Shown: positions 2,222 to 22,387 of the stretch, in pieces
Numbering within the stretch: position 1 is the stretch's first letter
Layout of the letters: every line of letters starts with the position of its first letter
Assembly: GCA_026388275.1 (NCBI GenBank)
Contig: JAPLKB010000064.1
Location: 1 to 64,000 of the forward strand
Direction of reading: 5' to 3'
DNA from: Pseudomonadota bacterium
GTDB taxonomy: Bacteria > Desulfobacterota > Syntrophorhabdia > Syntrophorhabdales > Syntrophorhabdaceae
DNA: 64,000 bases
Notes under the pieces: generated by a model
What the model saw: only the letters and a program-made list of their open reading frames with translations
What the model was told of the DNA's origin: nothing
Databases searched by the model: none
Position numbers and translations under genes: made by a program

Positions 2222-3298
2222 CTATGCCTTGACGTTCCGCCAAAAGCTTACCACGTCTGCCGTCACGCTGCCCGATGTCTTCAATTTTGACTCTGCCTCC
2301 TTTTTTGACCAGATCGTTTCCGGTCTTGTCTGCACGAAGAAAATATTTTCAGGAAAGGGCAGGTCCTTGTCTATAACCCATTCGATGTCCTGGGGCAGAC
2401 CATAGTGCTGTTCTATTTGCTTGCCCATTCTTGCCAGCTCTATCACCTCTTTGTCGGTCAGGCAAGGGACATTCTGCCTCTCAGGTGGTATGTCGGAAAC
2501 TATTACTTTTCCTGAAGGGTCGACTATATACTCAAGGCCTTTTGGTGATATAATATGCGTAATGATCTCGAGCACCACCTTATCCACCACCCACTCATCA
2601 GGGGTAACTGAACCGCTGACAACGCTCTCTCCCAGCCCCCAGTTTCCATCAATCATGATCTTGGATCTGTCGCCGTTGGCCGGATTGATTGTAAACATGA
2701 CACCGGCTGCCTTGGCGTTGACCATCTGTAGTACCGCAACACCGATAGGATCGTAGTCGAGCCTGTAACCGCCACGGGCGCGGGCAACAAGCGAGCGCTG
2801 GTTGAACGTGCTTGCCCACACTTTTATAATGTGCTGAAGCACCTCGGAAATGCCTTTTACATGGAGGAAGGTCTCGTACTGTCCCGGATGGCTGGAAGGT
2901 CCGGCTGATCTGGTTGCAACCGGGCAATTGGCTATCCCGGTCCTCCGGCACAACTCCTCGTAATATACAGTTATGGTTTCCTGCATATCCCGGGGCATTA
3001 GCTTCGTTTCAGCAATGCTGCGGACTATCTCCGACACTTCTCCCCATTTACCCAGGTGCGCCGGGTCGTGGGCATCAGCCTTGAAGAGACTCAGGTGATC
3101 ATTGATTTCGTTCAGAGCCCCGCTGTTGTTCATGAATCTGTCGTAAGCCTCAAGGCTCAAGGCAAACCCGTACGGAACCTTGAAACCGGCCCGGGTCATC
3201 TCTCCCAGATATGCGCATTTCTTGCCAACCAGGTCGTTCTGATTTTTGGTTACTTCTTCGAGCCAGTATATCCACTTGCCTGTAATATTTGTTGACAT
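2222..3298 (-). CDS. Phenylphosphate-synthase-like subunit 2 (ATP/pyruvate-binding half of PEP synthase)
   Basis: A 358-residue protein matching the N-terminal, nucleotide-binding half of PEP synthase. Landmarks are PVATRSAGPSSHPGQYETFL (the VRSS...GQ..TFL box), AAGVMFTINPANGD, the IDGNWGLGESVVSG box and IEWVIDKDLPFPE followed by FFVQTRPET. The swivelling His domain is absent and is encoded by the next gene upstream (3439-5286). This split is the architecture of phenylphosphate synthase (about 70 kDa plus 40 kDa subunits) in anaerobic phenol degraders such as Thauera, which phosphorylates phenol with ATP. I place the start at 3298 because AGGAGAGGTGAGG lies directly before it; an in-frame ATG at 3349 has no ribosome-binding site. 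The third, CBS-domain subunit known from Thauera is not present. Confidence 0.78.
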   Translation of the reverse strand: MSTNITGKWIYWLEEVTKNQNDLVGKKCAYLGEMTRAGFKVPYGFALSLEAYDRFMNNSGALNEINDHLSLFKADAHDPAHLGKWGEVSEIVRSIAETKLMPRDMQETITVYYEELCRRTGIANCPVATRSAGPSSHPGQYETFLHVKGISEVLQHIIKVWASTFNQRSLVARARGGYRLDYDPIGVAVLQMVNAKAAGVMFTINPANGDRSKIMIDGNWGLGESVVSGSVTPDEWVVDKVVLEIITHIISPKGLEYIVDPSGKVIVSDIPPERQNVPCLTDKEVIELARMGKQIEQHYGLPQDIEWVIDKDLPFPENIFFVQTRPETIWSKKEAESKLKTSGSVTADVVSFWRNVKA

Positions 3299-3438
3299 CG
3301 CCTCACCTCTCCTGCAATGCATCAGATGTTCCGGCTGTTTCAGGCTCATGCATCTTTGATTTTTTTATATGCCTTATGGATCTTCTGTAAGCGATGTAAG
3401 GGGCATGCCAGAGTCTGCATACCCCCTTCTGAACTCAG

Positions 3439-5286
3439 TTATTTCGCTCTCTCAAGTATTGTTACAACCCCTGTATCACCGTCGACCCTCAGCTTGTCGC
3501 CGGTCTTGATAATTACCGTGCCGTTGCCGACCCCGACGACTGCGGGCATCTTGTATTCTCTTGCAACGATGGCAGCATGACAGAACGTTCCGCCGATATC
3601 GGTTACACATCCTGCTATGACGTTGAATGCAGGCGCCCAGCTTGCAGCCGTCATCCTGCCGACCAGTACATCGCCCGCTTTTAACTTCGCAATATCTTCC
3701 AATTCCATGCATACACGGGCAGTTCCCTCGACAATGCCTGATGAACCGGCAAAACCTTTTAACTCAGTAACGTCTTCAGGTTTAATGTCTGCTGCCTGAA
3801 GCCACATGTCTATCTTTTCTGTGGTAACGCCCCATAAAACGATCGAATTGGGCTCTGTAACTACATCGGGTGCAGGACCAAGTGCCGGTGGAGGGCTCCA
3901 TTCCTTGAACTTGTTGTAAATTTCTTTTCGCCGCTCAATCTTCGGCGGGATCTCGTAAGTAGCTATTGCCGGCACGCAGGTACACCAGGACGCCAGGACA
4001 TCATAGAGCACAGGGTATATCTCGAAGCGGTTCAAATAGAAGATGTCGTCTTTATCGTTCAATACACCACGCGAAACGAACATCTGTCCAAGTTCTCTGG
4101 CTCTCCTGTAAAACAGCGCGTGGAACCAGTTCTCGATGTAAAATTGGTGACTTTCAGGAAAGATGGAGACTGTTTTCGCTAGTCCGAGTCGCTGATCAAA
4201 AATCTCTCTATCCTTATCGTTGGTGATGAGGCTGCGGTATTCAGATGCAACACGCTTGCTTTCCTTTTCCACTTCTTCACTGGGCCGGTCGATGCGTTCT
4301 CCCTTCTCAAGCATCCTGATATAGTTCTTTATGTGAGCCAGAGGCACTTCAAGGTTGTCATTCCAGGCAACATCCATGTGATGCCAGCCGCCGCCGATGC
4401 TCATCTCAAACCATGGCTCACGCACTGCTTCCACCTTAGCCAGCCATTCCTTGCCCGTTTCCGTCTGCTGCAGTTTTGCAGCCATGTCCGTCCACTTGTC
4501 GTAACCCTGTATGGTTTGAGCTACTCCAAGATCAATGGCAGATTTTGCCAGCTTCTGCAGCTCTTCCGGCGGCCGGAACATTTCGCCGGAAAAACCGGTG
4601 AGCATCTGGCCGATGGCCTTATCTGTGATGCCCGGGAAGAGGTCCCTCATGGTGTAGATGAAGTTCACATAGCCACCGTATGCCAGGCCATCCATTTCCA
4701 TGTGAAGCTGCCAGGCCCTCTGGGCAAGTTCGATCATTCTGTCGTAGCCGCGAAGGATTTCGTCACCTTCGAAGTACCCCTTGTGTTCAAAAACATAGGA
4801 ATCATCTGATACCCATGGCAGTGTACCTGGAAAATGGATCGACTTCATCTCGTCGATGACAGCCATCATTTTTGTTATCCAGAGCTTGTACAACTCCTCG
4901 TAGCGTTCATAGTAGTGGCCGGTCCTTGCCATAACGTAGGGGACCCTTTTCTCTTCCTCTTCCTTAGGTGGAAACGTCCCGGCCAGGTAAATGTAACCGT
5001 TAAGTATTTTGTGGTCGATTCCATTCGAATTGGGTATTACAAATACCTTGCTGACAAATCCGGATAGCGTCAAGTGCCACATGTCGTCCCATATGAGGTC
5101 CAGAGGATGCATCGGAAACGGGTAATGGACGCCGTCATAAAACCAGAACTGACTGCTCTCGTACTTCTCCCTCTCTGTCTTGCCTTTGCCGAATACGTAA
5201 TAGTAAGGATACATATCCTCCCACCCTTCGGTGCCAGGGATAATCGGCACTTCATGTGGATCCATAAAGCTTCTTTGTTTAGCCAT
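3439..5286 (-). CDS. Phenylphosphate-synthase-like subunit 1 (phosphohistidine domain)
   Basis: A 615-residue protein ending in a PEP-utilising mobile domain with the box GGTFCHAAIVAREYKMPAVV. The phospho-accepting histidine is residue 570. In the Thauera aromatica enzyme the corresponding residue is, from memory, His569 in a protein of about the same size, a striking agreement. The N-terminal two thirds match the PpsA1 type and not classical PEP synthase. With the ATP-binding partner at 2222-3298 it should form an enzyme that transfers the beta-phosphoryl group of ATP to phenol or a related hydroxyaromatic. The start has AAAAAGGAGG upstream. A 229-base gap without an evident gene separates it from the acyl-CoA ligase. 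Substrate cannot be proven from sequence; rifampicin phosphotransferases share the domains but are single-chain. Confidence 0.78.
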   Translation of the reverse strand: MAKQRSFMDPHEVPIIPGTEGWEDMYPYYYVFGKGKTEREKYESSQFWFYDGVHYPFPMHPLDLIWDDMWHLTLSGFVSKVFVIPNSNGIDHKILNGYIYLAGTFPPKEEEEKRVPYVMARTGHYYERYEELYKLWITKMMAVIDEMKSIHFPGTLPWVSDDSYVFEHKGYFEGDEILRGYDRMIELAQRAWQLHMEMDGLAYGGYVNFIYTMRDLFPGITDKAIGQMLTGFSGEMFRPPEELQKLAKSAIDLGVAQTIQGYDKWTDMAAKLQQTETGKEWLAKVEAVREPWFEMSIGGGWHHMDVAWNDNLEVPLAHIKNYIRMLEKGERIDRPSEEVEKESKRVASEYRSLITNDKDREIFDQRLGLAKTVSIFPESHQFYIENWFHALFYRRARELGQMFVSRGVLNDKDDIFYLNRFEIYPVLYDVLASWCTCVPAIATYEIPPKIERRKEIYNKFKEWSPPPALGPAPDVVTEPNSIVLWGVTTEKIDMWLQAADIKPEDVTELKGFAGSSGIVEGTARVCMELEDIAKLKAGDVLVGRMTAASWAPAFNVIAGCVTDIGGTFCHAAIVAREYKMPAVVGVGNGTVIIKTGDKLRVDGDTGVVTILERAK

Positions 5287-13297: not shown

Positions 13298-13425
13298 ATT
13301 CCAATTCTAAATCAAGGCGCTACCATCGTTGGCTTCGTCATCTGCTCCTCCGACGTACTATTACCGTACGCCTACGTCGCCTCTTCCTTGCCGCCTTGAT
13401 TTCATCCTTGATTTAGAATTGGAAT
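13298..13425. repeat. MITE-like repeat, intact copy (20-bp perfect terminal inverted repeats)
   Basis: A 128-bp element bounded by ATTCCAATTCTAAATCAAGG (13298-13317) and its exact reverse complement (13406-13425). The interior has a further hairpin built on GTACGTCG/CGACGTAC-type sequences. A second, inverted copy is at 20640-20782 plus 22326-22341. It encodes no protein that looks real, lies between genes and ends 8 bases before the stop codon of the YdbL-like gene. It resembles a non-autonomous miniature inverted-repeat element. This copy preserves the unoccupied form of the IS110 insertion site in the other copy. Confidence 0.85.
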
Positions 13426-20633: not shown

Positions 20634-20639
20634 GTTCTA

Positions 20640-20782
20640 ATTCCATTTCTAAATCAAGGATGAAATGAAGTACCCCGCCTGCAGCTTGCGGGGCAATCAA
20701 GGCGGCAAGGAAGAGGCGACGTAGGCGTACTATAACAGTACGTCGGAGGAGCCGATGAAGAAGCCAACGATGATAGCGCCTT
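20640..20782. repeat. MITE-like repeat, second copy, split by IS110-family element (remainder 22326-22341)
   Basis: Starts with ATTCCATTTCTAAATCAAGG (20640-20659; 19/20 to the intact copy) and runs as an inverted copy of 13298-13425 up to GCGCCTT at 20776-20782. The missing terminal GATTTAGAATTGGAAT is found at 22326-22341, on the far side of the transposase gene. Joined, the two parts rebuild the right terminal repeat exactly. This copy also holds 31 extra bases containing a CCCCGC/GCGGGG hairpin (about 20667-20697). Confidence 0.85.
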
Positions 20783-20829
20783 CCCCAGAAAATAAATCTC
20801 CCTATATATGTTTGTTTGACTTTGTTTCT

Positions 20830-20960
20830 TTTTCTCACATGTGTGGTAGCCGGTCCGGGTTATAATAATTTCCCCTGCGTGCTCTTTGGCAACACTGTTT
20901 TGTCCATATGACCGGCTGAGGTCAGTTTGATTTACGGGGTTTTCACCACCAGTAGGCGTC
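20830..20960 (-). ncRNA. Candidate bridge RNA of the IS110/IS1111-type element
   Basis: The noncoding end downstream of the transposase can fold by AGCCGGTC (minus, 20917-20910) with GACCGGCT (20855-20848) and CCCC/GGGG (20939-20936 with 20875-20872). It contains TAAATCAA (minus strand of 20927-20934), identical to the left target plus core (TAAATC then AA), and GGGGAAA (minus strand of 20869-20875), identical to the element's own right end plus core (GGGG then AA then A). These positions fit the left target guide and left donor guide of bridge RNAs. A right target guide was not found. Boundaries are approximate. Confidence 0.5.
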
Positions 20961-20999
20961 GACCTTTTTTCCACATTGTGTTATATCGTTTTTATATAT

Positions 21000-22217
21000 T
21001 TATGCCGCTTCCTTCAATGTTACCGTAAATCCAAGGCTGGTAAGTCTCTTTAAATAGCTCTTCACAATACGGTCTTTCTTGCGGGTATCAAGGTAATTAG
21101 CACCCAGTTCCTTGTAGGGCACTTTGTATTTGAGTATGTGATAGCCCATTATAAGTATCTTATGCCCTACTGCAATGAGCGCCTTTTTCTTTCCCCTTCT
21201 TCCTGCGAGACTCTGATATTTGGCCCTGAGATACGTTCCCTTCATCCTCGATGCCACCCATGCGAGCTCTGTAAGGATACTCTTCAAGCACTTATTGCCG
21301 TTTGTCGTGGTCCCTGGCTTTTTCTTACCCGCGCTTTCGTTGTTGCCGGGACTCATTCCAGCCCATGATGAAAGGTGCATTTCGCTGGGGAATAGGTTCA
21401 TGTTTACACCCATCTCTGCGATGATGACGGAAGCACTGTCTTTCACGGGCGGTATGGTCTGAAGAAGTTCATATTCTTCCTTATAGTGAAGATCAATCAT
21501 TTCCTCAATCTTTTGTTCCAGGTTTGAGAGTATCTCTTCCATTGCCTTTATATGTTTCAGAGATGCCTTTATCATGAATGCATGATGAGTGTCCATATGC
21601 CCCGCGAGTGCTTCCTTGAGGTCCTCTTTTTTTCTCCTTAATTTGCCTTTGCTCAATTCAGCCATTTCCTCTGCCTTAAGGTCACCTTTCATCAGCTCTT
21701 CGATAATCCTCGTTCCGCTTACCCCGAATATATCCGAGGCAACACAGGAGAGCTTTATATTTGCATCTTCAAGAATCTTTTCGATTCTCTGCTTTTCGGA
21801 GGCAACAGACTGAATGAGCTTCCTCTTGTACCTGGTGAGGTCTCTCAATTCCCTTATTTCTTTGGGAGGGATGAAGCTTCCCCTGATCAGCCCGCTTCTT
21901 AAGAGTTTACAGAGCCACTCGCTGTCCTTCACATCAGTTTTTCTTCCCGGTACATTCCTGACGTGCCGTGCATTCGCCAATATTACCTTAAAGGTATCTT
22001 CCAGTATGTTGAATATGGGCTTCCAGTAGACCCCGGTACTTTCCATGGCTATGTGGGTAATCCGGTTTTCCTTGAGCCAGATCTTGAGCCGCAGAAGATC
22101 GTTGGTCATGGTGCTGAAGGTCCGTATCTCCTTTTTTAACCCTGTCCCCATGATGCATGCCACCACTGTGTCCTTGTGCACATCAAGGCCCGCTCCTCTT
22201 TCAACGATTATGTCCAT
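21000..22217 (-). CDS. IS110/IS1111-family DEDD transposase (serine/DEDD recombinase)
   Basis: A 405-residue full-length transposase. The N-terminal RuvC-like DEDD domain shows D12 (GLDVHKDTVV), the glutamate of MESTGVYW (about 58) and two aspartates in GRKTDVKDSEWL (about 96 and 99). A coiled-coil region lies at about 130-240. The C-terminal Tnp20 domain contains SSWAGMSPGNNESAGKKK, where the conserved serine acts in strand exchange in this family. AAGGAGGGATCAC precedes the ATG. No frameshift or stop is present, so the element looks intact and potentially active. Confidence 0.94.
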   Translation of the reverse strand: MDIIVERGAGLDVHKDTVVACIMGTGLKKEIRTFSTMTNDLLRLKIWLKENRITHIAMESTGVYWKPIFNILEDTFKVILANARHVRNVPGRKTDVKDSEWLCKLLRSGLIRGSFIPPKEIRELRDLTRYKRKLIQSVASEKQRIEKILEDANIKLSCVASDIFGVSGTRIIEELMKGDLKAEEMAELSKGKLRRKKEDLKEALAGHMDTHHAFMIKASLKHIKAMEEILSNLEQKIEEMIDLHYKEEYELLQTIPPVKDSASVIIAEMGVNMNLFPSEMHLSSWAGMSPGNNESAGKKKPGTTTNGNKCLKSILTELAWVASRMKGTYLRAKYQSLAGRRGKKKALIAVGHKILIMGYHILKYKVPYKELGANYLDTRKKDRIVKSYLKRLTSLGFTVTLKEAA

Positions 22218-22387
22218 GTGATCCCTCCTTATTGGAATGACTACTATGGATATTCTTACTATAGAAAGGAGATATCTGGCGACATTTTCATTCCTTTTTG
22301 TGCCGACAAGTCGGCATGTGTGTTTGATTTAGAATTGGAATAACACAGTCTTTCCCATCTTCGAACTTCAAATTTAAAACCGGGATT

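Follow-up and report, generated by a model that had tools for sequence, protein, structure and literature searches.

The noncoding 3' end of an IS110-type insertion sequence almost certainly encodes a bispecific bridge (seek) RNA that guides insertion of the element into a repeat dispersed through the genome, at one of its two ends. The element lies in a 64,000-nucleotide stretch of a Pseudomonadota bacterium contig (the window), and we describe its gene, its ends, empty and occupied sites, the conserved fold of the RNA and the covariation of guides with DNA as they were observed. An earlier note on this DNA had proposed, from the letters alone, a candidate bridge RNA in the noncoding end 3' of the transposase; that proposal is borne out by a conserved fold and by guide–DNA covariation across related elements, so that what began as a guess by eye is now an RNA-guided recombinase with statistical tests behind it, and the guide code of one IS110 subgroup can be read.

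The insertion sequence occupies 20783–22323 on the minus strand (1541 bp without the shared core dinucleotide) and its junctions were seen directly in several copies in the same genome. Its intact transposase of 405 amino acids (21000–22217, minus strand), a DEDD/serine recombinase, carries both Pfam domains of IS110 transposases (PF01548 and PF02371), matches NF033542 ('IS110 family RNA-guided transposase') with an E value of 3.6e-78 and can be aligned by sequence similarity to the solved transposases of IS621 and ISCro4. The serine of its GMSPGNNES motif, the catalytic serine motif of the Transposase_20 domain, aligns with the IS621 serine; the DEDD RuvC-like and Transposase_20 domains that characterize the IS110 family are both present.

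The left junction reads ..CCAATTCTAAATC-AA-ACACACATGCC.. and the right junction ..TATTTTCTGGGG-AA-GGCGCTATCATCG.., with the core dinucleotide AA at 22324–22325 and 20781–20782, respectively; the left target TAAATC lies at 22326–22331 and the right target GGCGC at 20776–20780 (all minus strand), matching an empty repeat TAAATC-AA-GGCGC. The genome harbours one other full copy of the element and further partial copies that end at contig ends. All left junctions of full-size copies in this genome (6/6) read ..(T/C)AAATC-AA, and all right junctions (5/5) read AA-(G/A)GCGC, that is AA-(G/A)GCGCTATC. The ends of the window element (22283–22323 and 20783–20795) and of most relatives share conserved motifs, ACnnnCATG..ATGAAAA on the left and, on the right, TTTTC adjoining the left donor; GAAAAT and ATTTTC make up a short inverted pair, one lying closer to its element end than the other.

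The noncoding 3' part of the element can be aligned with regions beside other IS110-type transposases in public genomes, and a covariance model with explicit structure (R1) was built from 29 such regions, the window copy among them. R1 places the RNA gene at 20848–20966 on the minus strand (97 bits; 11 pairs with covariation), slightly longer than the earlier note had drawn it, to 20960. The model matches RNA beside nearly all of 84 related transposases, mostly with E values <1e-8; matches to training sequences hold by construction, and dozens of the matched loci lie outside the training set. A scan of the region against Rfam, both strict (gathering score) and permissive, returned zero matching families, and scanning for promoters gave no convincing candidate for the RNA.

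The RNA is structured in two guide-bearing loops, as in the IS110 family. The target-binding loop (20920–20964) has an outer stem formed by GGTC (20961–20964) with GACC (20920–20923) and an inner hairpin between its two guides; its helices 1 and 2 hold six pairs with two-sided changes, and the same loops appear in the minimum-energy fold. The donor-binding hairpin (20848–20917; both on the minus strand) is closed by AGCCGGTC (20910–20917) with GACCGGCT (20848–20855). This closing helix is too variable for alignment and was judged by pairing within and between elements: own arms scored 20.6 by comparison with 13.2 for arms swapped between elements, with a permutation maximum of 14.4. Of the folding first suggested, the pairing of AGCCGGTC with GACCGGCT thus stands as the helix closing the donor loop, but a further helix of CCCC with GGGG found no support in the alignment and is ruled out: the partners of CCCC are G residues in the inner hairpin of the target loop (helix 2), and GGGG serves as donor guide. 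Overall, the alignment contains compensatory changes in three helices, with 93.7% of paired cells pairing by comparison with 83.2% when shuffled and ≤ 48% with slid partners; the covariation score was 0.309 versus 0.119. The consensus is AGGTCG-[right target guide]-TGG..CCCG-[left target guide + core + 2]-TGACC..TGTTGCC..GAGCACG-[left donor guide + core].

The guides were tested by permutation over 53–68 deduplicated relatives, own guides being compared with swapped guides. The left target guide, TAAATC (20929–20934), is followed by the target-loop core AA (20927–20928), which agrees with the donor-loop core, and by AC (20925–20926), the first two bases of the element left end. The identity of TAAATCAA (20927–20934) with left flank plus core had been spotted from the letters and is confirmed; the identity continues two bases past the core (TAAATCAAAC), where the RNA agrees with the left end. 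Likewise, the match of GGGGAAA (20869–20875) to the right end (GGGG, 20783–20786, and core) holds and belongs to the left donor guide CAGGGG with core AA (20870–20877). The full guide agrees with the window end CTGGGG-AA at 7/8 positions and with the CAGGGG-AA ends of relatives L044 and L045 at 8/8. A right target guide, which the earlier note had been unable to find, is present as CGCC-T (20954–20958), the complement of A-GGCG, i.e. of the last core base and the right target (all guides on the minus strand).

Across relatives, the left target guide tracked the element's own left (upstream) flank with a z of 13.9, the left donor guide its own right end with a z of 15.9 and the right target slot the complement of the right flank with a z of 11.7 including the core or 11.1 without it (64 elements, with upstream as well as downstream RNAs); these and the later permutation z values are somewhat inflated because the permutations treat related elements as independent. 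No permutation of the guide slots (0/20,000) reached the observed value. The signal resolved to single bases: RNA nucleotides 34–38 co-vary with target positions −5 to −1 (z 9–12.5), nucleotide 40 with the core, 41–42 with the left end and 91–95 with the right end, and the position-wise signal of the right target guide lies at nucleotides 11–13. Identity of the two bases after the core with the first two left-end bases gave a z of 9.3 (53 elements), and these handshake-like bases (AC, TC, TG, TT, AT or CC) vary in step with the left end. The core letters of the two loops were the same in 70/71 elements, as AA, AG or, once, AC. As expected of the IS110 family, the guides change together with both target and donor and have a core in common.

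For the right-guide and handshake tests the junctions were located with other parts of the RNA. The right junction was located by the donor guide and not by the right target guide, so that the right-guide test is not circular. Controls gave a z of 0.7 for the right target slot against the left target, −0.7 for that slot when compared with the right flank in direct rather than complementary sense and 0.9 for the handshake-like bases against the right target. Some cross controls, with the left target guide in downstream DNA or the left donor guide in upstream DNA, reached a z of 2–3, which may reflect the frequent likeness of left target and left donor. In the window element itself the right target guide agrees with the target at five of eight positions including the core, with one core mismatch; close relatives agree at four. 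Position-by-position covariation for a right donor guide gave zero covarying positions; this guide is perhaps GTGT-T in CAGTGTTGCC.

It could be argued that two matches of seven to eight bases arose by chance or composition in a region that is merely the conserved 3' end of an element; chance alone should yield isolated short matches, the element has a high A/T content and the fold energy of the RNA is unremarkable (z −1.23). The caveat that had been attached to the original matches is right in that single 8-mers alone prove nothing, but the same slots co-vary over the deduplicated relatives, and the permutation tests, the single-base covariation and the null controls contradict the chance explanation, which we regard as highly improbable. 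That the fold is conserved across related elements and that guide positions follow the target sequence, the two checks suggested at the outset, both hold. Two elements in one strain of Paenibacillus cremeus differ correspondingly in guide and flank (L071, guide AGCAAA and flank CGCAAA; L085, guide TATAAA and flank CATAAA), which, as far as their sequences tell, is natural retargeting.

The intact target is a dispersed genomic repeat of roughly 115–165 bp with terminal inverted repeats ATTCCAATTCTAAATCAAGG, of which intact copies occur across the genome; in the window the interrupted copy is divided into a larger part (20638–20780) and a remaining part (22326–22341). The repeat is asymmetric inside: one end reads AAATC-AA-GGCGCTATC and the opposite end AAATC-AA-GGATG, the terminal sequence being common to both. 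The loci examined yielded 16 distinct empty ends of the first, GGCG-type kind and 21 of the second, GGATG kind. All five right junctions in this genome lie at the GGCG-type end and none at the GGATG end (0/5), and those of relatives L044 and L045 (AGCCCTATC and AGCGCTATC) are at the GGCG-type end as well (2/2); by our own arithmetic, 7/7 has a probability of ~0.008 under equal use of both ends. The target of the recombinase is one defined end of the dispersed repeat; for CGCC-T, the proposed right target guide, GGCG is a pairing partner and GGAT an incomplete one. At the orthologous site of a same-genus genome (G023, locus L149) both neighbouring genes are present and the repeat and the insertion sequence are absent, so that it offers no clean empty site and intact repeats of the element's own genome serve instead. 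The repeat itself, with terminal inverted repeats of 20 bp, looks like a MITE; it is found at 13304–13419 and 20638–20780 of the window and at many other places in the genome, and terminal matches to it also occur in G023 and G028.

The terminal inverted repeats of the target raise the question of whether the bridge RNA is real but the guides matter little, the target being set mainly by protein recognition of a DNA hairpin or repeat structure; published IS1111 elements often insert in potentially folded sites such as attC and REP (PMC11187229). Since the repeat ends are terminally alike, yet every right junction listed above falls at the GGCG-type end, and relatives insert at other sites that match their own guides, we consider this explanation very unlikely and retain the reading that the RNA guides select the site.

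By homology to IS621, ISEc21 and IS1111 elements we infer that the RNA is transcribed, that it forms an RNP with the recombinase and that strand exchange proceeds from a circular intermediate. In this scheme the left donor guide in the second RNA loop would pair with the element right end where this adjoins the left end in the circular form (the RE-LE junction), and the recombinase would insert the circle into one defined end of the repeat. Because the left target guide is followed by two bases in agreement with the left end, the same RNA strand could pair across the joined product in a handshake-like manner. The guide code is concrete enough for recombinases of this subgroup, whose members come from many bacterial phyla and from one archaeal genome, to be tested as programmable DNA inserters.

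Placement of the window element with the IS110 or the IS1111 group was based on transposase length, repeats and near relatives. The original label, 'IS110/IS1111', is too simple for an IS110-type transposase combined with an IS1111-like RNA position and guide order. IS621 and ISEc21 carry the left (bottom-strand) guide on the 5' side of the right one, and IS1111 elements have the reverse order (PMC11187229, PMC11208160). The window element lacks the long noncoding region upstream of the transposase and the left-before-right order of the IS110 group; its RNA is downstream and its right guide is 5' of its left, as in the IS1111 group. This arrangement (PMC11187229) would favour true membership of IS1111 rather than of the IS110 group. 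However, IS1111-type subterminal inverted repeats (7–17 bp) were not found in the window element, where inverted repeats between the terminal 60 bp are all ≤ 6 bp and the longest exact inverted match (6 bp) lies at unequal distances; the transposase has 405 amino acids by comparison with the 330–350 stated for IS1111 (PMC11187229); and the RNA is upstream in most relatives. Membership of IS1111 is in our view unlikely, and we treat the element as IS110-type. Among 79 placed relatives the RNA is upstream of the transposase in 58 and downstream in 19 rows, which form one clade (support 98) comprising the window element, its relatives and elements mostly from Bacteroidota; one change of RNA position suffices on the tree among single-RNA elements. 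The position itself is not new, as PMC11187229 noted a downstream noncoding region in some IS110-type elements.

Set beside published systems, the RNA resembles the IS621 bridge RNA (PMC11208160, PMC11208158) in being bispecific, with target and donor loops, core-containing guides, handshake bases and a DEDD/serine recombinase. It differs in that the IS621 RNA is upstream with the left guide 5' of the right; in the core, which is CT in IS621 and here A(A/G) on the top strand, i.e. (C/T)T on the other; and in the handshake bases, which follow the right guides in IS621 (PMC11208158) whereas the handshake-like bases here follow the left target guide. With the IS1111-family seekRNAs of ISEc11, ISPa11 and ISKpn4 (PMC11187229) it shares a position downstream of the transposase, palindrome-associated targets and a top-strand match (right guide) 5' of the bottom-strand match (left guide), but the element has no long subterminal inverted repeat, its transposase has 405 amino acids and is of IS110 type, and a related group keeps the RNA upstream. 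The ISEc21 seekRNA (PMC11187229) is likewise IS110-type and RNA-guided with matches to both target strands, with the opposite guide order and an upstream RNA. The 'green' group of PMC11187229, like the window element, combines an IS110-type transposase with a 3' noncoding region, and the element possibly belongs to it; we found no guide assignment for that group in the cited sections, and the present analysis assigns the guides, their order and the core.

These comparisons suggest that in this subgroup guide order does not follow the IS110/IS1111 split, contrary to the published rule; the same order may already be visible in three further IS110-group RNAs (PMC11208160, Extended Data Fig. 10). 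The reversed guide order, the complemented core and the handshake-like bases after the left target guide together suggest a flipped site polarity. We put forward tentatively, and do not yet count as probable, that in IS110 elements of this subgroup, with their long transposases, the recombination site has the opposite polarity with respect to transposase and RNA, that the bottom strand would be exchanged first and that the RNA gene changed ends once with its internal order kept.

Two relatives that might have been taken for two-RNA elements were rejected as such. In L102 a second IS110 element (3242–3620) directly adjoins the first downstream; it has a separate upstream RNA, whose target guide differs. 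The archaeal relative L109 has a duplicated RNA fragment at its right end (3057–3210), where the element runs directly into the latter half of its own bridge RNA. The break in this fragment falls precisely at the left target guide's core, much as though one copy had inserted, by self-targeting, into the guide of another.

Miniature elements of ~57 bp, with neither transposase nor RNA, occur in the same genome as the window element (L010, 1501–1558 on C63; L011, 1501–1560 on C4; L012, 1501–1558 on C42). In L010 the IS left end (ACACACATGCCGAC..GATGAAAAT) is joined directly to the right end (TATTTTCAGGGG-AA); L011 is alike and L012 less clear. Their left flank is again near AAATC-AA, and they look like non-autonomous elements moved in trans. 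Finally, in six Bacteroidota relatives (L049, L051, L052, L055, L092 and L122) the right end is ATG-AA and the junction ATG-AA-A forms the in-frame start of an open reading frame of 95–600 codons; a start codon is thus written both in the target guide and in the right end, and the gene would keep an ATG supplied by the insertion sequence.
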